Part shown: one piece after another, positions 6,195 to 55,179 of the stretch | Numbering within the stretch: the stretch's first letter is position 1 | How the letters are laid out: the number at the start of each line of letters is the position of its first letter | Assembly: GCA_030280995.1 (NCBI GenBank) | Contig: JASXTE010000010.1 | Location: 25,235,823 to 25,299,822 of the forward strand | Length of the DNA: 64,000 nt | Reading direction: 5' to 3' | DNA from: Hemileia vastatrix | Lineage: Eukaryota > Basidiomycota > Pucciniomycetes > Pucciniales > Zaghouaniaceae | The notes under the pieces: generated by a model | Told to the model about the DNA's origin: nothing | What the model saw: only the letters and a program-made list of their open reading frames with translations | Database searches by the model: none | Program-made: the position numbers and the translations under genes

Positions 6195-6307
6195 TTAAGA
6201 GCTCAATATGAGTTCAAAGTAAATTTCAGTATCAGTTCATTATAAGTTCAGTCTGAGTTACATCTGTGTTTGATCTAAGTTCAAGTTGAGGACTTGCTAG
6301 CAAGTCC
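6195..6307 (+). repeat. Subterminal AGTTCA repeats and 18-bp palindrome of the TIR element
   Basis: At least four AGTTCA/GTTCAR words are spaced about 15-25 bp apart just inside the right terminus, followed by the perfect palindrome GGACTTGCT/AGCAAGTCC at 6290-6307. Subterminal arrays of this kind are typical transposase-binding regions of cut-and-paste elements. That role is inferred here. Confidence 0.5.
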
Positions 6308-6330
6308 CCCCCAAATATTGTGTGGTGTAT

Positions 6331-12876: not shown

Positions 12877-13386
12877 ATTGGGGGTCATTCCTTGATTATT
12901 ATTGATTTTTTAGTATAAGCCTTAGGACATGATTTTTACTTAGTATAGCTCAAAAACAACCTAATATTTGGGTCTGCTGCATATTAGTGGGTCATCATAG
13001 CTCAGTGATTACGGAAAAGAATCCTTATAATAATTGTACTAATTTTTTATCATAAAAGTTAGGTATTTACAGTAGTAACTCTACCCAATATAAACCCAAT
13101 TTCACTTGGTATTTGGACACCAATATAACACCCAATTAAATGGGTATTTGGTTAAAGCTTGGTAAGCTAATAATTCAACCTTACAAAGGTCTAGTTAAAC
13201 TTATTATTATATTTTTAACAGATTTTTTCAAATTTTTCTTATATTTTATTTAAATAAATAAAGATATAAATTCAGGGTAAGCTCCAGTGCTTTTTTATTA
13301 GTAATAACATTGCTAATAACTTTTGTATACTAATTCCATAGAGTTTTTTCTTTCTGTAGATGTGATATATTGTCATTATTAAAAAT
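12877..13386 (+). other. Element D primer-binding site and leader
   Basis: The LTR is followed after 2 bp by TGGGGGTCATTCC (12879-12891), the counterpart of the conserved site in A, B and C. The remaining leader to ATG 13387 is AT-rich and untranslated, with a repeated phrase ACCCAATW...TGGTATTTGG at about 13080-13155. I see no other feature in it. Confidence 0.7.
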
Positions 13387-13986
13387 ATGAGTGCTTCTCA
13401 GGACAGTGTAAGTGAAAAGCCTGCTTATAATACCAGGTCTAAAGCTAACAAAAACTATCCAGGACATAACCATGGAGGGTCAGCAATACCCCCAGGCAGA
13501 GAACATGAGCATAGAGGAAAAAGATGCCCTTTTATAAAAGATAACCATAAAAAAGACATCTCCTCCTCTTCAGGATTAACTATCTCACTTGGCCAAACAG
13601 GTTTTAAAGTTGGAAGAATCCAAGGCACTCATGCTCAAAGAGGTAGAGCAATCACAGAACAATTGCAAGGTAGGGTTTCAGCAAATGAATCAAACACTGG
13701 CAGAGCTAAAGGGAGGCCAGCCAAGTCAACCAAGTCAGCAACCCCCTATCCCTGGAGGGTCACATCACTCCCAGGAGAAAATCCTGGTAGACAAATGGAA
13801 GTAGGACTGGTTCCATCAATAATGGACCAGCCACAGCTGCAACAGAGATCCACCACCTCATCAGACTTTCTCAGTTCACCCATACAAAGGAAAAAAAGCA
13901 CCAAAAATCAGGACTGGCATCTATCCCATGGTAAGTAGATTACCCTCTCAGATTGAACACAATACTGATAGTTACAATATAGGTAA
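13387..13986 (+). pseudogene. Element D frame-switched 5' ORF (decayed)
   Basis: This is the D version of the spliced second-frame protein described for A. Exon 1 is MSASQDS (13387-13407). Intron 1 is 13408-13462 (55 nt, GTAAGT, branch CTAAC, CCAG). Exon 2 enters the +1 frame at DITMEGQQYPQ. Intron 2 is 13931-13982 (52 nt, GTAAGT, branch CTGAT, ATAG) followed by GTAA. Exon 2 now has stops near 13535, 13571, 13802 and 13814 and one extra base before 13930. The lineup with C (MS.EE..LL, coiled coil, KWK.DW, HPY.GK) is still plain. This gives a fourth, more diverged witness of the arrangement. Confidence 0.6.
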
Positions 13987-18945: not shown

Positions 18946-19535
18946 ATTGGGGGCCTTTCCTCAAGAATTCTGTTATAATCCAGTAAGTGAAAATTTCAAA
19001 GAAGGTACATGTAAATAATATCCCTATAGAAATATTTGGATAATTACAACAGGTTGGGGTCACTTATATAGTGATTTCAGAAAAAGAAGCCCTGTTTTAT
19101 AATAAAATTGTGATATTGAATCAACAATTTTACCACTAATTTAACATAAAATTGTTATTAGTGGGAGTCTGTCAATAGACCAATTAAATTTGTGATCTTT
19201 GCAGATAATAAACCAATTAAACTGATTAATTGTTTTCTTTTAAACAGGACTCTTAATCTTTTCTTTTTATTGGTTTGTAACATTCATTAAATATTTAGAG
19301 AGAATCTTACTGACTGTTGTTTTCTTTTAAATATAAAAACATGGCTACATATTGTAGACCAGTTAAATCAAGTGACCATATAAAAAGCATATTTGACTTT
19401 TGGCACTTAAAGATTCACTTCATACCAATAAGTAAGCAAGAAAATTGTCTTCAGTGGTATTGATAAATACTGATAAAACTCCTTTTTGAAGTTTTTTATA
19501 TCTAAATTTTCAAATTCTTTAAATTCCGCGTGAAA
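18946..19535 (+). other. Element C primer-binding site and leader
   Basis: TGGGGGCCTTTCC at 18948-18960, 2 bp after the LTR, is identical to the 13-mer of A. The remaining 575-nt leader is AT-rich and has no other feature I can support. The codon at 19530 is GTG; the first in-frame ATG is 19536. Confidence 0.7.
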
Positions 19536-20131
19536 ATGTGTGACAACAATGAAATTGTAAGTAATAAGGCAAAACCTTATAAATTAAGACCTAGAGCTGA
19601 AAGACCTGTTACAGGACATTCAAATGGAGGGCCAGGACTCTCCCATAATCAACAACACTCCGCCAATGTCTCTGGAGGAAAGGGAAAAGCTTTTAAAGCA
19701 GGTTTCAATAAAGAAATCAAAAAATACATTACAAGAACAAGTTCACTCCCTATCCACCCTACTGAAAACCTTGACAATAAGAGTCAACAATATAGTGGAC
19801 CAGATCAACAATCTGGAAAAGAGAGCAGCTCAAGGTTTCATAGAAGTCAACCAAGCTCTAGTGGACATAAAGACTCAACCACCAACAGTGGCACCCAACA
19901 ATTCTATAGCAACACCTCCAGCCCAAGAGGAGGACCAAAAAATTACAGTAAGCAAATGGAAATGGGATTGGTACACCCAAAGTTACAAAAACCCTCCTCA
20001 GCAAGGATCCAGCAGTCACCCTTACAGGGGAAAGCCAAGGAGAGGCAGGGGAAATGGAATAAGACCTTGGTGAGTCATCCAACTTCTTATGATCAATTGT
20101 ATCAACCTAACAATGAATTACTTATAGGTAA
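19536..20131 (+). CDS. Element C frame-switched spliced 5' ORF (about 159 aa)
   Basis: Predicted from splice signals. Exon 1 19536-19556 (MCDNNEI) shares the Gag-Pol start. Intron 1 19557-19614 (58 nt, GTAAGT...branch CTGAA...ACAG) moves reading into the +1 frame at DIQMEGQDSP. Exon 2 runs 19615-20069. Intron 2 20070-20127 (58 nt, GTGAGT...CTAAC...ATAG) is followed by GTAA, giving a terminal Trp and stop. The protein has an N-terminal MSLEEREKLL segment, a long coiled coil (EQVHSLSTLLKTL to NNLEKRAAQG), a Pro/Gln-rich linker, a KWKWDW motif and a basic tail HPYRGKPRRGRGNG ending RPW. No known domain is recognised. A coiled coil plus a basic tail would suit an RNA-binding or assembly role, but that is inference. 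Confidence 0.55.
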
Positions 20132-20477: not shown

Positions 20478-20739
20478 ATCCACGATAATGAATTATCCCG
20501 CCTCTTATACCCCAATTTCCATTCCTAATTCCTGATCCCAAACTCATCTCATCCATGATGGATTTGCAAGAAAGTCACATGACTCATAATTGCTGATGCC
20601 ATCCTTAAGTCTTTCTTCTCTCTATGCTACTTAATTTTGGTGGCGAACACTTAAGTTTTTTTTCTATCTACACACCCCAACTGCACATTTGGCCGTGAAT
20701 TCCCACTTCCCTCATCACTTAACCCTTCCACCGGCAACA

Positions 20740-21999
20740 ATGAAACACCTCTCTACTAGGAAGCTACTTCACTCAACAATGAATGCTATTACTTTTCTTT
20801 TAGTTCTTTACTATAAATCTGACTCTGATTTGGAAGATGCTTTAGCTTATATGTGTTTTCTTTCCAAAAAGCGTTACATCATCACCAGGGGGCCAAATCT
20901 TTATCATGATCCCCGATATGATCTGGCCTCCATCCTCAACATTCCTCATTTAAACTTCACACAACTTTTTAGAACTTCTCCCGATTCTTTCTTCAAACTT
21001 TATCAACTCATCTCCAATCATCCTATCTTCCATAACAATTCTCATAACAAACAGCGTAATCCTGCCATCAACTTGCTGTTGCTCTATGTCGCTTTGGCTC
21101 AAATGGAAATGGTGCTGCCGTAAGACGTTTGGATAATCTCTTTAACATAGGATATGGTACCGTGATATTATACACCAAGCGCTGTATGATTGCTATCCTT
21201 TCCCTCAAGTCTCAAACTCTTGCTTGGCCAACTCCAGAACAGCGACTTGAATCCTCTCAAGTAATGCAAGCTGAAGGTTTCCCTGGCTGTATAGGTTTTG
21301 TTGATGGCACAACCATCCCTTTGAGTCAAAAGCCTGCTCATGATGGCAACCATTATTTTGATTGCAAAAAAAGGTTTCTTCAAAATCTCCTCCAAGTTCT
21401 CATCTTTCACAATCTAACTTTTTATCTTCTTTCTAGATACTCTATTGCCGTTCAACTTGTATGCGATGTCAATAAAAAATTTATTGCATTTTCACAGTGG
21501 CTGCCCTGGATCATGTCATGACTCTTCCGTCTTCCAAAGAATGAGGATTTCTCAATCCCCTGACTCATACTTTGACGAATCTCAGTACCTCCTTGCAGAC
21601 TCAGCATATGCAAGTGGAAAGTACATTATACCTGCTTTCCGTGGTGCAAATTCAGAAAATGACCCCAAAACTAAATTTAATTATCACCTTGCACAATCAA
21701 GAGTACGAATTGAACATGCTATAGGTATTTTAAAAGGACGATTTTCTAGTCTTCGGGAGCTCAGAATCCAATTTCAAAAAAAATTGGAGATCAAAACTGC
21801 AAATCATTGGATCTTGACTTGAGTAATACTCCACAATATTCTAGCTGATTTAAAGGATGAGTGGAATGATCTTTATGAAGAAGAGGATCCTGAACCACCA
21901 CTGGCACTCCCCTCCCTTGATTCACAAATCATTCAATTAACCGGCATACGCCCCATTATAATGCCAATTACTCTCCAACATTTCTCTTCACCCTTTTAA
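20740..21999 (+). pseudogene. PIF/Harbinger DDE transposase, damaged
   Basis: HARBI1-type nuclease (DDE_Tnp_4 family). Seen in order: an N-terminal region with YHDPRYDLASILN, the first catalytic Asp in GFVDGTTIPL (about 21295-21322), PGSCHDSSVF (21505-21535), the second Asp in LLADSAYA (21590-21612) and the Glu in RVRIEHAIGILKGRF (21700-21745). The reading is broken by a 1-nt loss near 21103 (QMEM instead of the family-like QMGNGA), an extra T near 21491 and a TGA at about 21820 before VILHNILADL. A probable 65-nt intron lies at 21371-21435 (GT...TTTCTAG) between CKKR and YSIAV. The catalytic residues themselves are all present. The start is the ATG at 20740; the frame also opens upstream without an ATG. 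Confidence 0.85.
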
Positions 22000-23234: not shown

Positions 23235-23891
23235 TTATTATCTAGCCATTTCAATTATATAGGCATATATTCGTTGGTCAAGAATATCACTAAAGCTCAA
23301 AAAGATGAAGATTTTCGCTTATGGGACACTCTACCTTCCTTTGACTCTTTTCTTGCTTTTCAACTCAACAAGCTCTGTAATAAAGCATTTGAAAAAAATC
23401 ATGAACTTGCAACCAAAGTTGGAATAACGAATTGGTGTGACTCCGAATTGGAAGATATCAGCCACGAATATCTTTTATTTTCTAATGTTATTATCACTCA
23501 TTCTGGATTCCACAATAGGATTCATATCGATAGGAATGATGCCAATTTTCTTACTTTTGGAATATTCTCATATATCAATCCGATAACTGGCCACCCAATA
23601 CCATCTCCAGCTAAAATCAAAGGACATGGTTTATATTTTCCAGACCACCGGTGCATCATTGATTTTGGTTTGGGAAATTGTATCATCAAAACTATTTGGA
23701 ATTCTTCTAAGGATAATCATCAAACGACCAAAGCTCCTCCTGGTTTGGAATCCTGTCAAGATTTCACTCATTTCGGTTGCTCATTTCAAATCAGTAATAA
23801 ATTGATACAAAGAATCAATAAGGTAAAGAAAGAAGGTAAAGTTATTCGATTTAAAAAAACTTTATCTAGATCCAAAAAGTATGGGGATTAG
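23235..23891 (+). CDS. Tet/JBP-like 2OG-Fe(II) dioxygenase (transposon cargo)
   Basis: This resembles the fungal Tet-like 2OG-Fe(II) oxygenase family, whose animal and kinetoplastid relatives oxidise the methyl group of thymine or 5-methylcytosine in DNA. Seen in order: a helical N-part (LPSFDSFLAFQLNKL, NHELATKVGI), the double-stranded beta-helix iron motif HID in RIHIDRNDANFLTFG (about residues 75-95 from 23274), GHGLYFPDHRCIIDFG, the distal His in NHQTT, and FTHFGCSFQI. In the family as I know it this last block carries an Arg (FTRxG) that binds 2-oxoglutarate. Here it is His, so activity is uncertain. There is no ATG: the frame is open from 23235, so an upstream exon probably joins at an AG such as 23245 or 23262. 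It has no stop or frameshift, unlike its transposase. Confidence 0.72.
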   Translation, partial: LLSSHFNYIGIYSLVKNITKAQKDEDFRLWDTLPSFDSFLAFQLNKLCNKAFEKNHELATKVGITNWCDSELEDISHEYLLFSNVIITHSGFHNRIHIDRNDANFLTFGIFSYINPITGHPIPSPAKIKGHGLYFPDHRCIIDFGLGNCIIKTIWNSSKDNHQTTKAPPGLESCQDFTHFGCSFQISNKLIQRINKVKKEGKVIRFKKTLSRSKKYGD

Positions 23892-31101: not shown

Positions 31102-31920
31102 TGTCAGCCAGGCTACTAGACTTACCCAGTGAAATAATTAATTATTTACTGGATGAAGCCGCACCCTATCATTTTTAATTATCATTTAATTATCATTTAG
31201 TTACATTAAAATTAGTTATAATAAATTAACTAATTACAAAATGTTAAAATTAAATTAATTAATTAAATAAATAATTAAAATTAAAATTATAATTTTGTCC
31301 CTTATATTTTTCTCTAACACCGTGCTCATTTGACAGGTTGGGAAAATTTTATATTAAAAAATAAATACAAAGATAAAATAAGATTTAAATATTCAAATAA
31401 TATTAAATATATACAAAAAAAATCAAATTTCTTATTTAGGATTGACTTTTACAGTAAATATTAAAAATATTGATGTATTTCTGACATACTCTGTAAATAC
31501 ATCTTTTTTTGATGCCTTCTTTTTAGAATAACTTTATTATTTGAAATACTTTTTCTGGAATGTTCTTTTTCTCTCTCTTTTCCTACTGTTTTTAGAATTT
31601 GTTTTCTGTGCTTTGTCTCTCCTTTGCCTATAAAAGGCCTCTCTTTTTGTTGTCTTTTGATCATTCTATTTTACCAACTCATTTTATTACAACAATAACC
31701 AACTAAACACTTATTCTTATATTCTATATTATTAGTATTTACAATAGCATAATTCTAATTTATAATTTATATTAATATTTTAATCCTACCTCTTTTATTG
31801 AGTAAAAAATTCATCTTTGAATTAAGAAATACGTACAAATTTGTTGAGAACCCATTTAAGCCTTTTAAATCCTCGTAGAACTACGTACCAAATCTTCTAG
31901 ACTAAAAGTATACCTTGACA
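31102..31920 (+). repeat. Element A 5' LTR
   Basis: 819 bp, TGTCAGCCAGGC...ACCTTGACA, with terminal TGTCA/TGACA inverted repeats. It is identical to 39033-39851 except for four substitutions. Confidence 0.97.
31629..31636 (+). promoter_or_regulatory. TATA box in A 5' LTR
   Basis: TATAAAAG in the context TTTGCCTATAAAAGGCC, about 290 bp before the LTR end. Element B has the same box with the shared lead-in TTGCC. The copy in the 3' LTR is at 39560-39567. Confidence 0.7.
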
Positions 31921-31922
31921 AT

Positions 31923-31935
31923 TGGGGGCCTTTCC
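31923..31935 (+). other. Primer-binding site of element A
   Basis: TGGGGGCCTTTCC starts 2 bp after the LTR and is shared (12-13 of 13) with B and C, less exactly with D. Only the first 7 bases fit a tRNA-Pro 3' end, so the primer is not assigned. Confidence 0.6.
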
Positions 31936-32284
31936 GAAATATCGACGGCGCAACGTTACTTGAGGCGTAATCGAGAGGACCATCGGTGTAGAAGCACCTG
32001 TAAAGGACGAGTGGAGGCAAGAAAACGACGAACGTCATACGTCACGTGATAAAAGTTTTTTCTGCAAACGGGAATTGAACCGCGCTCCAAAACTTAAGTT
32101 CATATACTGACTAAAGATCGTATATATCGTGGTAATTATTGTGATTACTATTTGTGGGTTACTCTTCACTCTTCATTTGCTACGTATTTCCTTTTACTCA
32201 GCACTCTGTAAGTGGCATTAATTTGCTCATTTTGCAGGGGGAGGTGTCTGGTAATTGGAATTTAATTTTATTATTATATTTTTT

Positions 32285-32840
32285 TTTTATTTTTCCTGGT
32301 TGACCATAATAGAGCAATAACTGTTCTTAGTCCCAGAGGTAATAAAATAATTATATATTAATATTAATTATTATCATTTTTCATTTGACAATTGTCCTGA
32401 TTAATTTGAATTTTAATTGTTCCAGTTGACAAACTGTCCTGACAATAAAATATTTTATTAAATAAAATAATTATTATAATTTTTAGGTTGACATTTTTCC
32501 TGATTAATTAATTGTTCCAGTTGACAAATTGTCCTGACAATTATATTTTTTTTAAATAAATAATTAACATTTCATTACTTCAGTTGACTTTGAGTCCTGG
32601 TAATCCAATAAATCTTTTTAAGTAATAAAATTCATATTTAAATTACTTCAGTTGACATTAAGTCCTGGTAGTTAATTAATCAGTTAAAATAATTTTTATT
32701 AATAAAGATTCATATTTGATTATTTCAGTTGACAATAAATCCTGGTAATAAATTAGTTGATTTAAATCCTGAAAATAAAAATTAATAGATATTCTAATTT
32801 ATTTCTACAGTTGATTGCATTATCCTGGTTTTAAATTTTT
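32285..32840 (+). repeat. Iterated CAGTTGACA-n5-TCCTGG motif in the A leader
   Basis: The leader (31936-32983) has no ORF but repeats a motif (C)AGTTGACANNNNNTCCTG about nine times, at about 32300, 32386, 32422, 32486, 32517, 32581, 32649, 32726 and 32810, embedded in A/T-only spacers. Looser copies occur in the B leader (about 41505 and 41622). The repetition suggests a cis-acting RNA or DNA element, but the function is unknown. Confidence 0.65.
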
Positions 32841-32983
32841 TTATTAATTTTATTTAAGTTGATTTTTATGCTAATAAGATTTTTTTTTTTGATTTATTTT
32901 TATTTTATTTCTGTTAAATAAAAATTAAAAATAAAAGACTAATTAATTTTGTCTCTTTTCCTTCATTTAAGTAGAATCTTAAA

Positions 32984-33657
32984 ATGACTGATCAAAGTGG
33001 TTTTACTGCACGTGAAGAAGAACTAGACTTAATTGATTATGATGAGCCTACTTCTGTAAGTTCTCCTTTAACAAGAAGAATTTCTCAAACTAATAAATCC
33101 TTGCCCCAAACAGGATGTGGAAATGGAAGAAGTAGAAATCCTAGTGGACAATACTCAGGATCAGAAACCCAGGACAAACCCACCAGAAGAGCTTCCAAGA
33201 GGCTTCAAAATAAAAAAGATGCCGTTGTCCCAGCAGATAAAGAATCAGTCAACCCACATAAAGGAGTTAAAGACAGACAGCTTAAAACTAAAGGTAAGGG
33301 TAGATGCCTTGGAAGAATGGGAGAAAAGAAAAAATACTTCTCTCCAAGAGAAAAGGAAACCTCTTCCTCCCAGGGATCAACAACAATTGGCTCCCCAATC
33401 CCAAGAGATGGTAGAAGTGTCCAAGTGGCAGTGGGACTGGCTCAACACTCAGTGGGACTACTTGGCTCAAAACCAGCATCAGTTACCTCAGGTAGGTCCA
33501 TCAAGGCCCGCCCAGACCAATCCCACTCCTCCCCACCCTTATCAAGGAGGCAAAAGAAGAAGGAAGCCCAATATGGTGATACCCAGCAAACCCTGGTACG
33601 TCCCTCTATTGATTCTCAAGTGCCTTTTCTTGTGGCTGACTCTGTTCCTTCAGGTAA
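32984..33657 (+). CDS. Element A frame-switched spliced 5' ORF (185 aa)
   Basis: Predicted spliced product sharing the Gag-Pol ATG. Exon 1 is 32984-33055 (24 codons). Intron 1 is 33056-33113 (58 nt: GTAAGT, branch CTAAT, AACAG). Exon 2 33114-33595 continues in the +1 frame as DVEMEEVEILVDN. Intron 2 is 33596-33653 (58 nt: GTACGT, branch CTGAC, TTCAG). Splicing TG to GTAA gives a final Trp and TAA. Unspliced, this copy would read on past Trp because its donor is GTACGT, so splicing supplies the stop. Features: basic RGFKIKKMPL, a coiled coil (IKELKTDSLKLKVRVDALEE), a Pro/Gln linker, SKWQWDWL and the basic tail HPYQGGKRRRKP ending KPW. No family is recognised; a nucleic-acid or particle-associated accessory role is inference. 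Confidence 0.6.
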
Positions 33658-36600
33658 ATCTGGAAGGGAGGATGAAACTTTGAGACCTATAGAGGCTGGG
33701 AATAGTAGACAGTTATCTCATCCATTACTTTTAATTGCTACCTCAATGATTAATCCTGATATGGCTGTGATTGATGAAACTCTTGACCCTGAGTTCTATG
33801 AGAGTCTGGAAAGTTACTCAGTTTCCTTATTGAGAAACACTCCGGATGTAGCAAGAATTAATGATGAGCACTTGAGAGATATTATTGCCAAGAAAAATCA
33901 TATAATGAACAATATGCAATTGACTCAGAGATATAATAGTTTGTTAACTGATCAGGGTTATCAAGCATTAAAAAGTGAAGCACAGAGAGTCTCTGATGAA
34001 TTGTCCCATTACAAAGCAACCCATGAAAAGAAAATTGCTTTATGGCAAAATATAAAAAATGATTTGTCTAAACTAAAAGATACTGTATCTGCCTGTTGCC
34101 AGGAGGTAGAGATAGATAAGATAAATCTGAAAAGATTGAGTGACCAGTTGTCATCTTTTCAACATAAAAATCAATTATCTTTTGCAACTGTCAATGAAAG
34201 TTTATCTAGTCTTCCAAGAATGAAAACAAGACTAACAACCATTGAAGAAACATTGAACTCATTGTTAAATGACCAAAAATATTCTGACAATTCTGTGAAG
34301 GAACATATAGTGCAGGATTCTCAACCAGTACCTGTGGCTAGTTCATCTAAAATAAAACTTGAACCAGAAATACCTGTTGATAACACTGAGTTTCCATCAA
34401 AAACTGATGATGCACCAGGATCTGCAACAGAAGGATTGAACAATGAGATTTCAGCACAATTAGAGAAATTACAGCTGCTTCTTACTCAGAAACAAGCTAG
34501 TACTAAGGAGACTCCTTCAAATCAAAAGAATTGGCCAAAACTTGACCAGTACCCAACATTTGATGGTGATTCTTCCTCTGATTGGCAACAATTTATTTGC
34601 AGAATTGATAATTTAAAAAATTCTTACAAACTCCCAGATGAGGAAATTGTGTCCAAATTAATTTCTTTGTTCACTAATGTTGCCCTGATGTGGTATGAAT
34701 CTGTTCTCCTGGATGGGAATGACTATTCATGGGAGGATTGGAAGAAATTAATTAAAGCACAATTTGGTGGCTCCAAGTTCAGAATGGCTCAACAAAGGCA
34801 GTATGAGGAAACCAGATATAGCTCTTCTACTGATAAACCTATTGAGTTTTTAATGAAACTTGTAAAAATCTTAAGGGCAATGGACCCAAATATGGAGTTT
34901 GATTTATGGAAGGACAGGATCCTCTATAAATTACCAATGTCTCTGAGAGACTTGATTGTGGCTAGGACTGAGTTCTCCAAAGAACCCTCTTCTTTCATTA
35001 ATACTTGCAATGAGATACTTCTAAACAATAAGTATGATGCAAGAAGATTCATTCCTAGGACCCCTTTGGAGAAACCCTCCACTTACCAACAAAAACCTCT
35101 GGAAAAGGTTGGTAAACCTTCTGCCCCTGTTGCACCAAAGAAGTATGCAACAAACACTTGCTTCAAGTGCAACAAGCCTTGGCAGAAAGGCCATGTTTGT
35201 GACAAGAAGATAAATCTTGTGGAACAAACAGAGGAGCATGCTGATGACACAGTGGCACTGGATGATACATCAAGTGATTGTGCCAGCAATATTTCATATG
35301 AATCTCAACAAGAAATCTTGATGCTGGAAGAAGATATTCATTATTTAAATACTATTGACGTTGATAATAATGATTTATCTACAGTTGAGGATGCTGAGAT
35401 CATAAAGAACATTGAGGATAACTCAATTGTTATTGCCCCTCTTAAGGCACCAGTCTTGATTAATGGAACCAGCATTGAAGTTGTTCTGGATTCTGGAGCT
35501 GGAGGAAGTGTAGTATCTGAAAGAGCACTTGCCTCAGTAGATCAAGACTATAAATCTAAACTGTTGCCTATCATTTCTGAAAATTGGAGAGGGTATGGCT
35601 CTGTTTTGTCCCCCATTGGTAAATACAAAGCCACAGTGTTTTTTAAATATAACCATGGTTTTTTAAGAGCTATTTGTGATTTTGTTGTCATGAAAAATGA
35701 TAACTTGAGCAATTGGTTTATTGTAGGGAATGATATTTTAACCAAGTATGGCATAAAATTGGATCCTTCAAACCAATGTTTCACAATGGGGTTGAATGGG
35801 AAGAGAAAATTTAAAATTTCCTCCCCTAAAAAATTATTAAAACCAGAATTGAACACATGTAATTCTGTGGTTCAATATAAAGGAAGATCTACAAAGGAAA
35901 TGCATGCCCTTATGTCTGAAATTGACAATGCCTCTTTTGGAGAACAACTTTCTGGTGAGGATAAAGATTCCATCATTAACTTGATAAAATCTTTTCCTAT
36001 GGCCTTTGCTCATGGGTCACATGAACTGGGATTAGTTAAAGAGGAAATGAAACTTTCATTGTCTTTCCCATTAACTGATATACCACCTAGTTTAAAGAAG
36101 AAGCCTTATCTTGCTTCTCCCACAAAGAGAAAAGATATTGAAGATAATATCTCTACCCTTTTAAAAATGAATATTATTGAAAAGGTAGTTGAAACACCTA
36201 AATATTGTGTTATCTCACCTGTCCTAATTTCTTATGAGAAAGATAAAGCCAGGTTATGTGGTGATTATAGAGCACTAAATACTTATACTGTTGATGATAT
36301 CTACCCTTTACCTAGAATCAGCTCTATACATGCTACTTTACAGGGTGCTAAATATATCAGCTGTTTGGATGGTAATAAGGGATATCACCAGGTACCTGTT
36401 GAGAAAAACTCTCAGAACTTTCTGATGATTGCCACTCATATGGGTATTTATAAGTATATTAGGATGCCATTTGGCCCTAAAAATGCCCCTTCTGTTTTCC
36501 AAAAAGTAATGGATAACACATTCCATCAAGAGATAATTGAAGGTTGGCTGATGGTTTATATTGATGATATCATTATATTCTCAAAAACATTTGAGGACCA

Positions 36601-38998
36601 TCTTAAACACCTGTGTAAAGTATTCCAGAAAATGGACGAAATAAATATGACACTTGCTTTGAAGAAATGTAAATTTGGTTTCCATTCTTTAAAAGTTCTT
36701 GGCCATGTTGTTTCAGGCTTACAGATATGTGTTGACCAGAACAAAGTGGCAGCCATACAACAGGTGAAAGCTCCTACAACAGTAAGAGAGCTCCAAAGTT
36801 TTTTGGGAATGTGTGGATACTATAGACAGTATATTAAAAATTACCAAGTCATAGCTTTACCCCTTACCCAATTAACTAGAAAGGATGTTGCTTTTGTCTG
36901 GAATAGTGAAAGACAAAGAGCCTTTGACACTATGAAACACTGTTTAATGTCAGCACCAATTCTTGCTTTACCTGACTTTGATCAACCATTTGTTTTGTAC
37001 ACTGATGCCAGTTTCATTGGTCTTGGTGCTGCCCTCCATCAAAAACAAGTGATAAATGATAAAGTTTCAGAAGTAGTAATTTGTTATATTTCAAGAACCT
37101 TGAGAAATAGTGAATTGAAATATGGTGCTACTCAATTAGAGTGTTTAGCTGTAGTATGGGCTCTAGAAAAGCTTCATTATTACCTAGATGACCAGAAATT
37201 TGAACTTGTCACTGACTGCAGTGCAGTTAAATCCCTTTTAAACTTGAAAACACCTAATAGACATATGTTTAGATGGCAGCTGGCTGTTCAAGAGTACAGA
37301 GGGAGAATGACAATTGTTCACAGAGCTGGTATTGGTCACTCAAATGTGGATATGTTATCAAGGTTACCCTTACCAAATGATGACTCAAATCCTGCATATG
37401 ATCCTGAGGATGAAATTATCCATATCCATGGGATATATGTGGTTGATATGGAGGAAGAGCTATTACAGCTTATTCTGGAATCATATGATAAGGACACTGA
37501 CTTGAAAAAGTTATGCACCATATTAAATGATCCAAAGAATGCTTCAATACAAGCATTAATTAAAACCCTTCCACCAAAGTACCAAAAGGGTTTGGAAAAA
37601 GGAAAATTTTCAATTGATGAAGGATATCTATATTATAGGAGGAAGTTGAGTAATGTTATTGTTATTCCTCCTTCTATGAAAGAAATCATCTTGAAAATTT
37701 GTCATGATGACATATTGGCTGGACATTTTGATCTTGACAAAACAATGATCAGAATTAAGAACACTGCTTGGTGGGCTAATATGTCTGAAGACACAAAATT
37801 ATATGTTGAATCCTGTGATTCATGCCAAAAATCAAAAAGATTAACTGGTAAAAGAGCAGGATTAATGCAACATATTGAACCTCCTGATGCCCCATGGCAA
37901 ATAATAAACATGGATTTTGTAACAGGATTACCTATTGCTGGTAAAAACAGTTATAACTCTTGTTGGGTTATTGTGGACAGATTCACAAAAATGTGTAAAT
38001 TTATCCCTACCCACAAGGATGTTTCCACTAAAGAATTGGCTTTCTTATGGTGGTCTCATATGTTTAATACTGCTGGTTTTCCTAAAGCCATAATCTCTGA
38101 CAGGGACCCTAAATTTACTTCTGAATTCTGGATGTCTCTGATGGATGTTTGTGGTTGTGATCTGAAACTTTCTACTGCCCATCACCCTCAGACTGATGGT
38201 TTAGCTGAAAGAATGATTCAGACTTTAGAGGACATGATAAGAAGATATTGTTCCTTTGGCCTTGAGTATAAAGATAATGACAGATTCACTCATGATTGGG
38301 TTACCTTACTTCCTGGGTTAGAATTTGCTTATAATAGCACTGTTCATTCTGTTACTCAAAGGAAGCCTTTTGAGCTCTGGCTTGGATATGTTCCTAATAC
38401 TCCTGCCCAAATTCTCAATAACAAAATACCTAAATTGGATATACATCCTGGTTTAAAATCTTTTCTTCAAATGCAACAACTATGCAGAAATCATGCTCAA
38501 AAATGTATTGAAAAATCATTTGAATATGAGAAGAAAAGATGGGACAAATCCCATAAAGAATACACTTTTAAAAAGGGTGATGAAGTGTTGATTTCTACAG
38601 TCCACTTCAACTTACAAGGTAATAACAAATTAAAAGATCCATTTGTTGGTCCTTTTGTTGTAAGAAGAATGATTGGAGATAATGCAGTTGAAGTTATTCT
38701 GTATTCCCCATATGACAGAAAACATCCTGTTTTTCCAATATCTCTTTTGAAACCTTACACATCCAATAGTGATTTATTTCCAAGAAGGAGGGGTAGACCA
38801 AAGAAAACCCCAAATGAAATCACTGAGACAGCAGAAATTGAAAAAATTTTAAATGAAAGAATAGTCACTGCTGAGAAAGGTACAGAATACTTATTGAGAT
38901 TCAAGAATAAATCATCTGAATATGATTCTTGGATACCTGGGAAGGAGATATCTAATCTTCCTACTCTACTAAAAAAGTATAAAAAGAAAAAATCATAG
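32984..38998 (+). CDS. Element A Gag-Pol polyprotein, chromovirus Ty3/gypsy, intact
   Basis: 2004 aa in one frame. Approximate residues: Ser/Lys-rich N-region 1-230 (overprinted by the second frame); coiled coil 300-450; capsid 515-680 (NWPKLDQYPTFDGD, AQFGGSKFRMAQQR); zinc knuckle CX2CX7HXC at 724-737 (CFKCNKPWQKGHVC). Retropepsin DSGAGGS is near 835. RT is 1040-1230 with YIDD near 1192. RNase H is 1320-1460 (TDAS, E in LECLAVVW, TDCSA, NVDMLSR). Integrase has HHCC 1573-1613 and core D near 1642 (NMDFVTGLP), D near 1705 (SDRDPKF) and E near 1742 (GLAERMIQ). GPY/F-like module 1884-1925; chromodomain 1947-2000 (EIEKILNERI, YLLRFKNKSSEYDSW). The chromodomain class targets integration to marked chromatin in relatives. 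Gag and Pol are fused without a frameshift. Confidence 0.95.
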   Translation: MTDQSGFTAREEELDLIDYDEPTSVSSPLTRRISQTNKSLPQTGCGNGRSRNPSGQYSGSETQDKPTRRASKRLQNKKDAVVPADKESVNPHKGVKDRQLKTKGKGRCLGRMGEKKKYFSPREKETSSSQGSTTIGSPIPRDGRSVQVAVGLAQHSVGLLGSKPASVTSGRSIKARPDQSHSSPPLSRRQKKKEAQYGDTQQTLVRPSIDSQVPFLVADSVPSGKSGREDETLRPIEAGNSRQLSHPLLLIATSMINPDMAVIDETLDPEFYESLESYSVSLLRNTPDVARINDEHLRDIIAKKNHIMNNMQLTQRYNSLLTDQGYQALKSEAQRVSDELSHYKATHEKKIALWQNIKNDLSKLKDTVSACCQEVEIDKINLKRLSDQLSSFQHKNQLSFATVNESLSSLPRMKTRLTTIEETLNSLLNDQKYSDNSVKEHIVQDSQPVPVASSSKIKLEPEIPVDNTEFPSKTDDAPGSATEGLNNEISAQLEKLQLLLTQKQASTKETPSNQKNWPKLDQYPTFDGDSSSDWQQFICRIDNLKNSYKLPDEEIVSKLISLFTNVALMWYESVLLDGNDYSWEDWKKLIKAQFGGSKFRMAQQRQYEETRYSSSTDKPIEFLMKLVKILRAMDPNMEFDLWKDRILYKLPMSLRDLIVARTEFSKEPSSFINTCNEILLNNKYDARRFIPRTPLEKPSTYQQKPLEKVGKPSAPVAPKKYATNTCFKCNKPWQKGHVCDKKINLVEQTEEHADDTVALDDTSSDCASNISYESQQEILMLEEDIHYLNTIDVDNNDLSTVEDAEIIKNIEDNSIVIAPLKAPVLINGTSIEVVLDSGAGGSVVSERALASVDQDYKSKLLPIISENWRGYGSVLSPIGKYKATVFFKYNHGFLRAICDFVVMKNDNLSNWFIVGNDILTKYGIKLDPSNQCFTMGLNGKRKFKISSPKKLLKPELNTCNSVVQYKGRSTKEMHALMSEIDNASFGEQLSGEDKDSIINLIKSFPMAFAHGSHELGLVKEEMKLSLSFPLTDIPPSLKKKPYLASPTKRKDIEDNISTLLKMNIIEKVVETPKYCVISPVLISYEKDKARLCGDYRALNTYTVDDIYPLPRISSIHATLQGAKYISCLDGNKGYHQVPVEKNSQNFLMIATHMGIYKYIRMPFGPKNAPSVFQKVMDNTFHQEIIEGWLMVYIDDIIIFSKTFEDHLKHLCKVFQKMDEINMTLALKKCKFGFHSLKVLGHVVSGLQICVDQNKVAAIQQVKAPTTVRELQSFLGMCGYYRQYIKNYQVIALPLTQLTRKDVAFVWNSERQRAFDTMKHCLMSAPILALPDFDQPFVLYTDASFIGLGAALHQKQVINDKVSEVVICYISRTLRNSELKYGATQLECLAVVWALEKLHYYLDDQKFELVTDCSAVKSLLNLKTPNRHMFRWQLAVQEYRGRMTIVHRAGIGHSNVDMLSRLPLPNDDSNPAYDPEDEIIHIHGIYVVDMEEELLQLILESYDKDTDLKKLCTILNDPKNASIQALIKTLPPKYQKGLEKGKFSIDEGYLYYRRKLSNVIVIPPSMKEIILKICHDDILAGHFDLDKTMIRIKNTAWWANMSEDTKLYVESCDSCQKSKRLTGKRAGLMQHIEPPDAPWQIINMDFVTGLPIAGKNSYNSCWVIVDRFTKMCKFIPTHKDVSTKELAFLWWSHMFNTAGFPKAIISDRDPKFTSEFWMSLMDVCGCDLKLSTAHHPQTDGLAERMIQTLEDMIRRYCSFGLEYKDNDRFTHDWVTLLPGLEFAYNSTVHSVTQRKPFELWLGYVPNTPAQILNNKIPKLDIHPGLKSFLQMQQLCRNHAQKCIEKSFEYEKKRWDKSHKEYTFKKGDEVLISTVHFNLQGNNKLKDPFVGPFVVRRMIGDNAVEVILYSPYDRKHPVFPISLLKPYTSNSDLFPRRRGRPKKTPNEITETAEIEKILNERIVTAEKGTEYLLRFKNKSSEYDSWIPGKEISNLPTLLKKYKKKKS

Positions 38999-39032: not shown

Positions 39033-39851
39033 TGTCAGCCAGGCTACTAGACTTACCCAGTGAAATAATTAATTATTTACTGGATGAAGCCGCACCCTAT
39101 CATTTTTAATTATCATTTAATTATCATATAGTTACATTAAAATTAGTTATAATAAATTAACTAATTACAAAATGTTATAATTAAATTAATTAATTAAATA
39201 AATAATTAAAATTAAAATTATAATTTTGTCCCTTATATTTTTCTCTAACACCGTGCTCATTTGACAGGTTGGGAAAATTTTATATTAAAAAATAAATACA
39301 AAGATAAAATAAGATTTAAATATTCAAATAATATTAAATATATACAAAAAAAATCAAATTTCTTATTTAGGATTGACTTTTACAGTAAATATTAAAAATA
39401 TTGATGTATTTCTGACATACTCTGTAAATACATCTTTTTTTGATGCCTTCTTTTTAGAATAACTTTATTATTTGAAATACTTTTTCTGGAATGTTCTTTT
39501 TCTCTCTCTTTTCCTACTGTTTTTAGAATTTGTTTTCCGTGCTTTGTCTCTCCTTTGCCTATAAAAGGCCTCTCTTTTTGTTGTCTTTTGATCATTCTAT
39601 TTTACCAACTCATTTTATTACAACAATAACCAACTAAACACTTATTCTTATATTCTATATTATTAGTATTTACAATAGCGTAATTCTAATTTATAATTTA
39701 TATTAATATTTTAATCCTACCTCTTTTATTGAGTAAAAAATTCATCTTTGAATTAAGAAATACGTACAAATTTGTTGAGAACCCATTTAAGCCTTTTAAA
39801 TCCTCGTAGAACTACGTACCAAATCTTCTAGACTAAAAGTATACCTTGACA
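39033..39851 (+). repeat. Element A 3' LTR
   Basis: 819 bp, partner of 31102-31920. The TATA box is at 39560-39567. The TSD CATAT follows at 39852. Confidence 0.97.
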
Positions 39852-41232: not shown

Positions 41233-41898
41233 ACTGGGGACCTTTCCAAACGACGAACGACAAAACGCACGGACCACCTAGCAAAACGAAACTTTTGCCG
41301 CGACTGTGTTTCAAACTTGGGTTCGACATCTTAGGTTTGTATATTATTAATTTTTATATTATTTTGAAGTGATTTTTCGATCACTATAGTAAGTTCACCT
41401 TTGCGCCTATCACTCATATTACTATATTTTTATTGCAATAACAGTGATTGTGGCTTAATTGCTGATTCACTGAGTGTAAGTGTTCAATTTTAAATTTTTT
41501 TTTTTTCCTAGTTGACCATTATAGAGTGTTAAATCCTCTTAGTCCTAGAAAAATTGACATTATTATTAATACAAATTGAATTATTAATTTAATTTTTTTT
41601 TTATTATTAATTATTGTTAATTTTGGTTGACTTAAAACTACATTGTGCTTAGTCCCAAATATATTGCCATATTTAATAATGGTAATTAATTGGTTGAATT
41701 AACTTACTTGTTATTCCCAATTTAACCTTGCAATCCATTTTTTTTAAAAAATTAATTTTTTAATTATTACTTTATATTGAAAATTATTTCTATAATTTAA
41801 TTAATTAAATATTTTTTTTTATTATTTGGAGCAATTATTGACTAACTTTGATTATTTTTTTATAAAGTACAAAGTAAAAAATAAATCTTCCCACTAGT
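41233..41898 (+). other. Element B primer-binding site and leader
   Basis: TGGGGACCTTTCC (41235-41247), 2 bp after the LTR, then a 650-nt AT-rich leader without ORFs. Two loose copies of the TTGACC/TTAGTCC motif of the A leader occur at about 41512-41550 and 41625-41665. Confidence 0.65.
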
Positions 41899-42638
41899 AT
41901 GTCCAACAATTTGGCAGAAAAAATGGATAACATGCAAGTGGATGAGATAGAAATTGACTATGATGCTGACACTGTAAGTTCTTCTAAAGTTGGTCATAAA
42001 AAATCTTATGCTAACACAAAGAATTCACATACTGCAGGATGTGGAAATGACAGGAAATGCAAACAAACCAAACCCCCTTCCCCCAGTACCACAGAAGGAA
42101 GTAAAGCCTCTAGTGCCTCAAGAAGGTCTTCCAAAAGGCTTCAAAATAAAAAAGCTTCCTCTGCCACAACAAATCAGCAACCTATCCAGTCATATAAAAG
42201 AGTTGAAGACAGAAAATATGACGTACAAAGCAAAGGTAGACACATTGTGGGATCAGGTCCAAGAACTCAGGAACCAGATTCAGGCCCAGGCCCCTCCTCA
42301 GTTGCCTCCCAATCAGCCTCAATTTCAGGCTCAACCTTCACAGCCACCCAGCTCAACCATCCAAAATCCAAATACTATGGAAGTAGAGCAATGGAAATGG
42401 GATTATCTAATGAGTCACTACCAACAGAATGTGCAACACCCTCCTCATCATCAGCCTGGCCCATCCAGAACACCCAATTTCCATCCACATCCTCATCCCT
42501 ACCAACAAGGCAGGAGAAAGAAGGCCCAAGCACAATCCCAAACCCAGTCCCAGGGGAAGTTTCCTCCTCTGCCATGGTAAGTAATTTGGTTGATAGTCAC
42601 TTGGGTATGTTTTCTAATAAATCTTCTTCTGCAGGTAA
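41899..42638 (+). CDS. Element B frame-switched spliced 5' ORF (205 aa)
   Basis: Same plan as in A. Exon 1 41899-41973 (25 codons). Intron 1 41974-42037 (64 nt: GTAAGT, CTAAC, TGCAG). Exon 2 42038-42576 opens as DVEMTGNANKPNPLPP. Intron 2 42577-42634 (58 nt: GTAAGT, CTAAT, TGCAG) is followed by GTAA, giving Trp then stop. Protein: Pro-rich start, PKGFKIKKLPL, coiled coil (SSHIKELKTENMTYKAK, LWDQVQELRNQI), a long Gln/Pro linker, EQWKWDYL and the tail HPYQQGRRKKAQ ending LPW. Nucleotide identity to A is low in the intron bodies, whereas the splice signals and the amino-acid motifs are kept. Confidence 0.6.
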
Positions 42639-43578
42639 TATTATTGAACATGGTGAAAGAACAGTTAAACCTGTTAAAAGACAGCTTCCTGTAACTAGTA
42701 GCCCTATTGATGTAATTAGCAAATTGTCATTTGATGAACCTTTACATTTAACTTCTACATCTTTAATTAATCCTTCTCTTGCAATTAAAAATGATTCTGT
42801 TCCCCCTGAAATCTATACCTTAATTGAAAAAACTTCTGAGGAAATATTGAAAGATACCCTTGATTTTAATATTGTGAAAGACAAACATGTGAGAGATGTG
42901 TTAATCCATGAAAATGATAGATTAAATAATTTACACTTGCAATGTAAAGTAAGTTCTTCTGTACAAGATACAGCTTATTTAAAAATCAAAGAAACCTTGA
43001 ATATTGTTCTTAGTCAACAAAAACAAATAAGAAGTGACCATAGAGCTATCTCAGATAGAAATATCAGTCTACATAAGACCTTGAGTGAATTTAAACCCCT
43101 TATTGAGGAAAATTATTCATTCAAGAATGAAATAAAATCTCTACAAAATGAGTTTAAGAAGCTAAAAAATGATTTCCATGCACTAAGTACCAAACACTCA
43201 GTTTCTGAGGACAGAAATGTTCTATCTCTTGCAAAAGTAAATGACCAGATGTCTGAAATTCCAAGAATAAGAAACTATGTGTCTGACCTACAGGAAAAGT
43301 TCTCAACCTTATCCATCAATAATGAATTAAATGAGATTTCTGCAAATAAGCTGCATAAAAATAAAGGGAAAAAACCTGAACAAAGTTCATCTTTTCTTCC
43401 TCATATTTCAACCATTAAACAAACTGACAATGAGTCTGTGAAATCTTTTGCTACTAGCAAAAAATCTTGTGATGGTCATGCACCAGCTGTTTCTGTAAAT
43501 AATGAAATTTCTGAACACCTGGCTAAACTTCAGGAATTATTACTAATGAAAGTAGTCAGAAAAATTGGCCTAAGTTAG
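41899..43578 (+). CDS. Element B Gag N-terminal half
   Basis: 559 codons in the unspliced frame: Ser-rich N-region, then Gag text aligned with A (TSLINPSLAI near 42755), then a long coiled coil (42900-43330). It ends at a TAG at 43576 because one base is missing near 43550. The text ...LQELLLMKVVRKIGLS replaces the family-like continuation into the capsid, which carries on one frame away. A has no shift here, and I see no slippery heptamer, so mutation is more likely than programmed frameshifting. Confidence 0.85.
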   Translation: MSNNLAEKMDNMQVDEIEIDYDADTVSSSKVGHKKSYANTKNSHTAGCGNDRKCKQTKPPSPSTTEGSKASSASRRSSKRLQNKKASSATTNQQPIQSYKRVEDRKYDVQSKGRHIVGSGPRTQEPDSGPGPSSVASQSASISGSTFTATQLNHPKSKYYGSRAMEMGLSNESLPTECATPSSSSAWPIQNTQFPSTSSSLPTRQEKEGPSTIPNPVPGEVSSSAMVSNLVDSHLGMFSNKSSSAGNIIEHGERTVKPVKRQLPVTSSPIDVISKLSFDEPLHLTSTSLINPSLAIKNDSVPPEIYTLIEKTSEEILKDTLDFNIVKDKHVRDVLIHENDRLNNLHLQCKVSSSVQDTAYLKIKETLNIVLSQQKQIRSDHRAISDRNISLHKTLSEFKPLIEENYSFKNEIKSLQNEFKKLKNDFHALSTKHSVSEDRNVLSLAKVNDQMSEIPRIRNYVSDLQEKFSTLSINNELNEISANKLHKNKGKKPEQSSSFLPHISTIKQTDNESVKSFATSKKSCDGHAPAVSVNNEISEHLAKLQELLLMKVVRKIGLS

Positions 43579-51696: not shown

Positions 51697-52875
51697 TGTC
51701 AGCCTAGATATGCCTAGTATTGAGTATTTCTTATGCTTAAAATAAGATAACCTTAAGAACATTAAGCTTATATTTTAAAAATAAGGTTAAAACAATTATA
51801 TATATGATTATAATACATATATATATAATTATTACACTATTATCTAACTTATAGTAGTTTAAATAGCTTATCCATAGCCTAATAATACTTATTAAGATGT
51901 TAATGGAGTCATAATATACTTATCTTAAGTGATATTAAGTAATTATTGACATACATAAGCTTAAATGTATACATAAAGCTCATATTCAGTGAAATATGCA
52001 GTATATTATGTATATTTAGGTCTATAAGTGGGTATTAGCCTCTTAATACCCTATAAACTTTGTTTTCATGCTTATTTTAGGTCATATGGACGAAATCAGT
52101 GGATTAACAATGCCTACAGAAGCATAGACATCTATATCAGGTGCATACACTCAGTTTGGACAACTTAATCTGCTTCCTTAGATGGATATTCACAGATTTA
52201 TGGGTTGGGAGGTCATTGCTGGGTTAATGTAGATACTTGGGGATGTTATTGGGGGCTTGGACATTTCATTTGTTTCCTTTATATGCTTTGGGTTTCATTA
52301 AATCTCTTTTGGATTACTTATTTGACCTGTTACTTTATGGTACCTGCTTTTATCTGGATTTTCTAGTTATGTTTTGGGTCTGTGTTATCATTAATTGTGA
52401 TGGAGGGTCCTTACTGGAGGTCTGGGTTTTCAATCTGCTTGAAGTGGACGCCATGGGGAGGTGATGGGCCCTCAAAGTGCTATTATTTCTGGGGATAGCA
52501 GTGACATCATCTGGATTGAAGGTCTGTGCACTCCAGGGGATTTGGGTATAAGTAAGGAAGGATTTTGACCGTTATTCATAATCAATTAGTTACTAAATTT
52601 AAATCAAACACTACAATACAATTATTAACATTTAGAAATATATTATAAAGCCTTTTATAATTTGATATTATCATTATATAAGCTATAACTATATTCTATT
52701 TAGCTATTTTCCACCACTAAGCACGCATTTAGATCCAAGTATTGTGAGTTTTATTTGAGTATAACTGTTTTATCAGTCTTCCCCTGAGGTTTAATCACTA
52801 ACTTATTTATCAATAAGTAGTAGGACCATAAATAAATACTATTATATCATACTTATATACTAGAAAATACTGACA
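51697..52875 (+). repeat. Element D 3' LTR
   Basis: 1179 bp, TGTCAGCCTAG...ATACTGACA, partner of 11699-12876, followed by TSD GGTTG at 52876-52880. Confidence 0.93.
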
Positions 52876-54340
52876 GGTTGGTAACTCATTTTTCTGCTCC
52901 TCTGGGATATGTCAACGTCACTCTGAATGGCAGGGAGGCTAGAGCATTGGTGGATTCAGGTTCTCAGATCAACCTTATTTCCTTGTTTGAGGCTACTCAT
53001 TTAGGCCTCCCCATCAAAACTGGTATTGGTGGGAGTTTGAGAGGTATAGGTGGCCATGTCACTGAGTTGATGGAAACCTCCAAATTTGTTAAGTTGGATG
53101 TTGGTGGAGCCTCTGTAAAGGTTCATTTTTACATTGCTAAAGGTAGTGTAAAAGCTGTTTTGGGTGGGCCATTCTTGATGGATTTCCAGGCAGGAATTGG
53201 CTATCAGTTTGACATTGGAATTAGCTTGGAGTTAACTGGTGAAGATGACAGAAGGCTTCACATGAGGTTATCATCTCCTGGAGATGATGGTTTGGATACC
53301 AGGCCTGGTTTGTTGCCCATGTGTCAATGCATGGATTGCTGCAGGAGAAGAAAGGAAGTGGGTGCTGTCTCTGTATTTTTGGAGTGTGGCTCACGCTCTA
53401 TTAAGAGTCTGTCTTTTTTAGAGTGATGAGGTCTGATAACCCAAGTTCTACAACCTCTCCACAAGATGAGGAAATCCCAGGTTGTAGTAGGTCAGCTCCC
53501 TTGGAGATATACCAAGTGGAATTTCAACTTTCTCTTTTTAATGCTTCTCTTCTCTGCAAGTATTCTTCAAATTTTTTATCAAGTCTCTGTTCTCTCTCAA
53601 GATTTTCAATTAATTTTAATTCAAGTTCTAAAAGGAAGATGGGTTATATTTCTTTATTGAAAGATAAGCGGAAAAGCTGTGGAGTGGTGAGATTGGGGTC
53701 TAAAAGTAAGTCCTACCAATTGTGCACTGCTAAGGTTTCTTCTACACCTTTCAAAAACATTACCTTGGCCACATCCATGAGCGTTGGTGAAAACCCTGGT
53801 TATTTTTGTAGGAAAGAAGAAAACTCATGATAAAAAAAGAAAAATTTTGAGATAATTCAAGAAAATCAAGAAAAAAATATGAAGATAATGAAGAAAGATG
53901 ACAAAAATTATTTTTGTGAAGATTTTCAAGATCTAGTTTTGTGCCTCCAGCAAGAGGTTAAACTGCACAAATTTTTGAAGAATGAAGATCAGCAAGATCT
54001 TGTCTTGGGCCTCCTGCATGAGGATAAACTGCACAGTTTTAGAAGATGTGATTCAGAAGATGAATCTAGATTTGAAGAATTGGTAGATGGAAGTGAAGAT
54101 CAAGATGTGGGATTGAGGAAAAGCTTTGGATTGATGAGATTGGGGATTAAAAGTAAGTCCTCCCAATTGTGCACTTCTAGGGTTTCCTCTACACCTTTCA
54201 AAAACATTACCTTGGCCACACATGTGAGTGATGGGGAAACCCTTGGTTTTTGTTCCAGGTCTGGTGGAGAAGACATCCTGAACATCCCTCAAGTTGATGG
54301 TGGAGCCGCAAAGTACAAGAAGGTGGCACAGAAGATTAGG
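52876..54340 (+). pseudogene. Element E protease and protease-RT spacer
   Basis: Continues E from 11698. The retropepsin domain reads HFSAPLGYVNVTLNG, catalytic ALVDSGSQINLIS (about 52949-52990) and AVLGGPFLMDF (about 53153-53190). A Cys-rich stretch (CQCMDCCRRR) and a stop follow at about 53424. Beyond it, the spacer up to RT contains an approximate internal duplication: 53688-53812 and 54137-54260 both hold RLG.KSKS.QLCT..VSSTPFKNITLAT. The frame DGGAAKYKKVAQKIR at 54295-54340 joins cleanly to PVNEPMPVGL at 55185 once the solo LTR is removed. Confidence 0.78.
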
Positions 54341-55179
54341 TGTCAATGGGTCCTGATGGTCTAAAAGATTCTTACGGAGGTCCAACGGGAGGATTAGGTT
54401 GTTTATTGGGGTTTCAAAGTCAAAGTTTGTATTTTTTCTTTTATTTTATTTACTCAATTTAAAGAGGTAAATTTTTTTATAAATATTACTATTATAATTG
54501 GTTAGATTTACATAGTAGTAAAGACTAAGACAATGAATAATAGTAATAGATATTTGTTTATTATAGTGATGTAATAAAATAAGTAAGTAATGATTGAATG
54601 TTCCAAAACAACAAAAAGGAGAGGCCTTTTACAGTCAAATGAGAGACAAAGAACGGACTTAAAATTCTAAATACAGGAGTATGAGAGAAGAAGAAATAAA
54701 ATTCCAAGAAGACAATTTCAAATCATAAGATTGTTCTAGAAAGAATGTGTCCACAATCTGTATTTACAGAATATGTCAAAAATAAATTGTTTTATTTAAA
54801 ATTAAAGTAAGTGTCAATTTTGAATAAGTAATTTGAATTTTTTCTATATGGTTATTTTTATTTCAATAATAAATTTTATTTTCAATATTTAATATTTATT
54901 TTAATATTAAGTATTTTATTTCTCTTTAACCTGTCATTGAGCACAGTGTTAGAAATAAAAATAATAAAAATAAAATAAAAATAAAAATAAAAATATAAAG
55001 GACATTTATTATTAAATTTAATTATTTACTAACTTTACTTTTTTTTGTAACTAGTTAATTTATTACAAGTATGTTTAAAGTAAATATTATAATTAATAAT
55101 TATAAGAAATAAATAGGTGTGGCTTCATCCAGTAAATAATTAATTATTTTACTGGGTAAGTCTAGAAGCCTGGCTGACA
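54341..55179 (-). repeat. Solo LTR of the A family, minus strand, in element E
   Basis: The right end is the reverse complement of the A LTR start (CCTGGCTGACA, with TTACTGGGTAAGTCTAGAAGCC next to it). The left end TGTCAATGGGT...GTCTAAAAGATTC is the degraded reverse complement of the A LTR end. Flanks TTAGG (54336-54340) and TTTGG (55180-55184) are a TSD with one mismatch. 839 bp against 819 for A, clearly older. A solo LTR implies LTR-LTR recombination after insertion. Confidence 0.85.

Follow-up and report, generated by a model that had tools for sequence, protein, structure and literature searches.

Fungal LTR retrotransposons are normally read as gag and pol. A 64 kb stretch of Hemileia vastatrix DNA (the whole stretch analysed, called the window below, to which all positions refer) raises the question of whether the 5′ end of gag can also hold a second gene, reached from the Gag start codon through a short intron. 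A sequence-only reading of the window had proposed this for four elements, with two GT–AG segments flanking a frame that overlaps gag.

The chromovirus elements of the window

The window is AT-rich (GC 0.27–0.40 in 4 kb steps) and contains several Ty3/gypsy elements. Four members of one family, named A, B, C and D here, have their gag start inside the window, all on the + strand, and the conservation tests described below cover these four. A fifth member (approximately 6–8754) starts outside the window, window position 6 being equivalent to position 33872 in A; the layout is thus present in all four elements that are able to show it, D being decayed. When the second protein served as a tblastn query against the window, only A–D were matched.

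In element A, the 5′ LTR (31102–31920, 819 bp) is 99.5% identical to the 3′ LTR (39033–39851) and is followed by a leader (31921–32983) and by an unspliced gag-pol frame (32984–38998), which is a single frame of 2004 amino acids with a chromodomain at its end. Pfam recognizes RVT_1 (93.8 bits) and RT_RNaseH (107 bits), both above their cut-offs, and, 3′ of the reverse transcriptase (RT), Integrase_H2C2 (64.9 bits, above the cut-off); the rve core scores 31.3 bits, slightly below its cut-off of 32.6, and Chromo, at the end of pol, scores 34.7 bits against a cut-off of 25.1. Judged by these domains, A is a chromovirus, i.e. a Ty3/gypsy element with a chromodomain. The LTRs of B (1253 bp) are 98.7% identical, and from these identities both A and B are taken to be recent insertions, so that the layout is carried by young copies. 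The two elements share 78% of their DNA sequence over 4.5 kb, 72% of the Gag core protein and 89% of the RT. A zinc-knuckle-like motif in Gag (35159–35200, CFKCNKPWQKGHVC) reads C-x2-C-x7-H-x-C and has similar counterparts in B and C; the usual Gag zinc knuckle is C-x2-C-x4-H-x4-C.

The unspliced Gag-Pol frame had been described as open across the whole region in A, B and C. This is correct between the two segments, where none of the three has a stop; further downstream, the frame of B is broken near 43550 (43527–43578), just before the Gag core, at a place where A is a single frame, and the ORF of C stops at 20474. Inspected by eye as a possible intron or programmed frameshift, the break in B seems more likely to be a length difference relative to A. 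Element C seems to resume at 26464 after an inserted stretch. In this insertion, positions 23274–23891 encode a Tet-like 2OG-Fe(II) oxygenase domain (PF20515, E = 6.5e-27), and 63 nt at 21374–21436 look by eye like a short intron, with CTAAC 23 nt from the end and a GTTTCT donor. Three overlapping ORFs in successive frames lie at 20635–21822; we take them to resemble an intron-containing transposase, and the part at 21060–21521 has no match in Pfam. Elsewhere in the window, 52836–58511 belongs to another, different Ty3/gypsy lineage (aspartyl protease at 52878–53426, RNase H at 55887–56936), and the GC skew is strong from 52 to 64 kb.

Among the best 120 of 1660 relatives of the RT, the top score belongs to a 3443-residue protein of the pseudoscorpion Cordylochernes (40% identity) and the highest identities to two environmental proteins (59%); Puccinia proteins reach 43–49%, and those of Austropuccinia, Rhodotorula and Phenoliferia 43–44%. 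A pattern search for RT relatives gave 153 matches in viral contigs and 56 in genome contigs, none of which was confirmed. With the Gag/protease region of A as the query, four related proteins were obtained among 5488 candidates, and the sole named ones found are from Puccinia striiformis (25–26% identity).

Splice-like segments at the start of gag

In element A, the first exon (32984–33055) provides 24 codons common to Gag-Pol and the second protein. It is followed by predicted intron 1 (33056–33113, 58 nt), through which the Gag frame is open, by a dual-coding exon 2 (33114–33595), in which the +1 frame encodes the second protein and the other frame Gag, and by predicted intron 2 (33596–33653, 58 nt). 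The same succession is found in B (exon 1, 41899–41973; predicted intron 1, 41974–42037, 64 nt; dual-coding exon 2, 42038–42576; predicted intron 2, 42577–42634, 58 nt) and in C, where exon 1 has only seven codons (exon 1, 19536–19556; predicted intron 1, 19557–19614, 58 nt; dual-coding exon 2, 19615–20069; predicted intron 2, 20070–20127, 58 nt). The decayed element D also starts with seven codons (13387–13407), followed by predicted intron 1 (13408–13462, 55 nt), an exon 2 of 468 nt (13463–13930) with four stops in the second frame and an open Gag frame, and predicted intron 2 (13931–13982, 52 nt); the length of its exon 2 modulo 3 is unlike that in A–C.

All eight segments proposed by the sequence-only reading are present as it placed them, each starting with GT, ending with AG and having a length of 1 modulo 3. 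The first donor is GTAAGT in all four elements, as it had also noted, and the second is GTACGT, GTAAGT, GTGAGT and GTAAGT in A–D, respectively. The reported CTRAN branch-like motif is found in every segment, starting 24, 27, 18 and 18 nt before the end of intron 1 and 18, 21, 21 and 18 nt before the end of intron 2 (A–D); the CTGAA of C intron 1 is the weakest of the eight, and intron 1 of B and of D has an additional CTRAN further in. In every one of the four elements exon 1 consists of whole codons, and removal of intron 1 would lead into D[VI]xM in each, as had been claimed. Splice-signal conservation among A–D also holds: among the aligned intron 1 sequences, GTAAGT, CAG and the GA after it never vary, and only three interior columns are invariant; for intron 2, the fixed positions are GT..GT, AG and the GTAA behind it, plus three columns of the interior. 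The GC content of intron 1 is 0.31–0.36 and that of intron 2 of B–D is 0.31–0.33, compared with 0.44–0.47 for exon 2; the exception is intron 2 of A, which at 0.47 has the same GC content as exon 2 of A. The Gag frame is open through seven of the eight introns (product of shuffled chances 0.0005).

The segments were compared with chance using several scans. A tuned rule (GTRNGT, 50–66 nt, CTRAY, YAG), set after the sites were known, retrieves seven donors on the + strand of the 64 kb and none on the − strand; all seven are among the eight, the one missed being C intron 1 with its CTGAA motif. On 40 dinucleotide shuffles, the same rule gives a mean of 1.62 and a maximum of 5. A slightly different tuned scan gives seven on the + strand and one on the − strand. 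An untuned rule (45–100 nt) finds 13 on the + strand, seven of them from the eight, and three on the − strand, compared with 10.55 in shuffles. Since the untuned rule hardly exceeds the shuffles, the motif alone is weak and it is the recurrence at one homologous place that counts. A loose rule, used for leader introns, yields 38 donors on the + strand versus 33.45 in shuffles; it gives a candidate before each start (32154–32237, 41389–41444, 18983–19080 and 12987–13062), to which no weight is attached.

Intron 2 is probably a genuine intron and is less secure than intron 1. Its donor already contains the second protein's stop in B and C (TGG-TAA and TGG-TGA, respectively), and splicing of intron 2 is therefore unneeded to end the protein there. 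The GTAA after the second acceptor, said to recreate the Trp-stop, does occur in all four elements, D included; as a stop it matters only for A, which alone needs the splicing of intron 2 and would otherwise extend the protein by about 30 residues. In the Gag frame of A–C this GTAA gives Gly-Lys or Gly-Asn, and it may be conserved for Gag. Inspection by eye also led us to reject the skipping of exon 2, since joining exon 1 directly to exon 3 would miss the Gag frame and run into an early stop.

Two coding frames and the second protein

In the stretch separating the two segments, no +1-frame stop occurs in A, B or C, in agreement with the earlier claim, and four occur in D, whereas the Gag frame has none in any of the four and the third frame has 13, 11, 13 and 11 (A–D). 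The protein alignment of the second frame exceeds shuffled sequences in all six pairs of elements (z = 6.1–32.6). For the Gag frame it is clearly above shuffled sequences only in A–B (z = 12.3) and C–D (z = 6.4), and for the third frame z ranges from −1.7 to 3.4.

Synonymous shuffles allow each frame to be judged with the other held fixed. In the conditional similarity test relied on here, every shuffle is re-aligned and all six pairs are covered. With Gag fixed, the observed second-frame similarity was reached by none of 1000 synonymous shuffles in any of the six pairs, which bears out the conserved +1-frame protein that had been proposed. With the second protein fixed, the Gag similarity has P values of 0.019 and 0.025 in the close pairs and of 0.115, 0.123, 0.562 and 0.589 in the distant pairs; an alternative conditional test, limited to four of the six pairs and with the alignment fixed on the observed pair, gives lower P values for Gag (0.002–0.019). 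The absence of stops behaves in the opposite way (3000 synonymous shuffles per element). With the second protein fixed, Gag has no stops versus 5.1–7.0 expected (P = 0.0010, 0.0003, 0.0000 and 0.0003 in A–D), whereas with Gag fixed the openness of the second frame is unremarkable (P = 0.029, 0.159 and 0.251 in A, B and C; P = 0.003, 0.074 and 0.172 when pol codon usage is applied). Counted by codon position in the second frame, A and B differ least at the first two: there are 59, 57 and 96 differences in a protein-guided alignment, and 48, 53 and 84 in a DNA-guided alignment.

The check for synonymous-site conservation in both frames, made on A–D, therefore has an asymmetric outcome: the second frame is conserved, and as Gag similarity beyond that imposed by the second protein is weak or absent, only the openness of Gag is clearly selected. 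Moreover, structure prediction finds no structure in the Gag frame of the overlap (mean pLDDT 48.3), and the first approximately 200 residues of Gag-Pol are predicted to be a disordered extension. With a second frame conserved when Gag is fixed, and a Gag frame that is open and has no predicted structure, these comparisons indicate that the second frame is a constrained protein and that Gag mainly needs an open frame there.

The predicted spliced products of A, B and C have 185, 205 and 159 residues, respectively, which matches the proposed range of 159–205. IKK, LKT, VD, W.WD, HPY, a later R and a terminal PW, among others, are invariant in the three, and the W.WD, HPY and R of the sequence-only reading are thus recovered. 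AlphaFold, given the three sequences, predicts a helix at residues 38–80 of exon 2 (pLDDT 92–93 over 41–70 and 78 in the flanking blocks) and a second helix at 104–121 around KWQWDW (pLDDT about 75); the remainder is low, and the pTM is 0.27. Basic residues follow HPY in the translated second protein. Pfam returns sub-cut-off matches only; those in B are mostly to coiled-coil families, and A has one. Among 1452 candidates from 5.8 billion proteins, none is a homologue of the second protein at E ≤ 0.001, and none of 116 pattern matches in viral contigs was confirmed. A profile of the second protein run against 122 element-related proteins gave a best match in Centaurea (12.3 bits in total, 4.5 bits for the best domain), which is taken as chance; this search reads records in their own frame and misses a protein hidden in another frame.

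Proposed choice between the products, rival readings and known systems

The leaders are poor in ATGs. Element A has one versus 16.9 expected and B one versus 10.1; in stretches of arbitrary length there are two versus 11.0 in the 600 bases before C and three versus 6.6 in the 500 bases before D. Such leaders fit scanning to a shared ATG. We consider, with a probability of roughly 0.8, that the 5′ end of gag is dual-coding and that intron retention picks between Gag-Pol and the second protein. When the introns are retained, ribosomes would start at the single ATG after the ATG-poor leader and make Gag-Pol. When intron 1 is removed, the same ATG would lead into the +1 frame and yield the separate protein, with a coiled-coil-like helix, another helix surrounding KWxWD and, beyond HPY, a basic tail; it would finish with PW-stop where the donor of intron 2 lies. 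Additional removal of intron 2 would leave the end of this protein as it is and shift the remaining gag-pol out of frame, so that the message would be dedicated to the small protein. In the earlier claim of one start codon serving two products, the conserved second protein, the Gag frame held open and the invariant donor and acceptor all stand; the splicing itself, and its ratio, is what we infer.

Other readings of the same region have to be set against this one. The second frame could be a chance open frame in low-complexity gag, with a similarity that mirrors that of Gag. Its openness in B and C is indeed unremarkable once Gag is fixed, but its similarity exceeds 1000 of 1000 such shuffles in all six pairs and Gag is the less conserved of the two frames, which leaves this explanation scarcely credible. 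Alternatively, the second protein could be real and made from unspliced RNA, with translation starting at the Met of D[VI]xM, whether through leaky scanning or through internal initiation, and the splice-like motifs would be fortuitous. This Met is present in all four elements, and between it and the Gag start there is no ATG in D and one in C; three ATGs intervene in A and seven in B, however, which makes leaky scanning an unlikely route in these two and leaves it a possible one in C and D. Such initiation also leaves unexplained why a donor, a branch motif, an acceptor and lengths of 1 modulo 3 should recur at a homologous place in four elements, and we regard it as improbable. A narrower alternative is that intron 1 alone works and that the pattern of intron 2 arises as a side effect of the TGG-TAA end and the Gag coding downstream. 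The stops inside the donors of B and C, reached without splicing, speak in its favour, and Gag coding can account for the GTAA after the acceptor. Against it, intron 2 passes the tuned scan in all four elements, under a rule with seven + strand matches in the window; its length is 1 modulo 3 in all four; and the GTACGT donor of A, which has lost the stop, still conforms to GTRNGT. This alternative appears unlikely, although less so than the other two.

Choice between products by intron retention, as we propose here, has parallels in plant Ty1/copia elements. According to the excerpted text on BARE1 of barley, a 104 nt intron shifts the frame; Gag comes from the spliced RNA, in which pol is knocked out (PMC3735527). 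Retention of a short frame-shifting intron would likewise pick the product of an LTR element in the present case; unlike in BARE1, translation of the predicted spliced RNA would quit Gag ahead of the core and continue into a distinct, conserved protein that overlaps gag in another frame, the host elements are Ty3/gypsy and the introns have 52–64 nt. For EVD of Arabidopsis, also Ty1/copia, the excerpted source describes an unspliced RNA for GAG-POL alongside a spliced one that gives a smaller product, with intron retention tied to nuclear retention (PMC8892269). The pairing of a full-length unspliced RNA with a spliced RNA for a smaller product would be common to both systems, the latter RNA being predicted here; in that text the EVD product is Gag, obtained with early cleavage and polyadenylation, and no overlapping second protein is described. 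Extra ORFs, some with spliced transcripts (env-like, Bagy2), are reported for plant LTR retrotransposons in the excerpted text of a further source (PMC7264820); these are env-like ORFs after pol and antisense ORFs, unlike the overlap with 5′ gag described here, and 'overlap' occurs 0 times in its main text. Of the traits of BARE1 and EVD, a donor and an acceptor whose removal shifts the frame are present in the coding region here; an encoded Gag is not, since the product of the predicted spliced RNA leaves Gag after 7–25 residues.

Complex retroviruses make spliced regulatory proteins in overlapping frames, for example Rev and Rex. A predicted helix that might oligomerize and a basic tail, in the product of a presumed spliced RNA from an element that must retain unspliced RNA as well, hint at a role in controlling the fate of RNA or as a cofactor of Gag. 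The second protein may accordingly be imagined as an oligomer that binds RNA or Gag and regulates the RNA of its own element, a tentative assignment to which we give somewhat less than even odds. The likeness to Rev and Rex would lie in the working principle only, namely a small basic oligomerizing protein from a spliced RNA (here with a predicted helix and with presumed splicing and oligomerization); what differs is the location within the 5′ part of gag and the use of the Gag start codon, and no sequence relation is claimed. It is by this analogy conceivable, and in our view doubtful, that a chromovirus lineage independently evolved a Rev/Rex-like control of the export, packaging or translation of its own intron-retaining RNA.

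A literature search covering titles and abstract openings, with few subscription journals or preprints, retrieved no paper describing the layout, and the terms gag, splic- and intron are absent from the main text of a 2025 paper on rust transposons. If the dual-coding reading is true, the annotation of such elements misses a gene, namely a conserved second protein reached via an intron of about 58 nt, and the balance of intron-retaining genomic RNA and spliced message becomes testable. The region would also exemplify an overlap between a protein under constraint and a disordered extension of Gag.

As a minor observation, positions 32413–32764 in the leader of A contain four or more diverged, unevenly spaced repeats, each roughly 49 nt long and built around CAGTTGACA...TCCTG.
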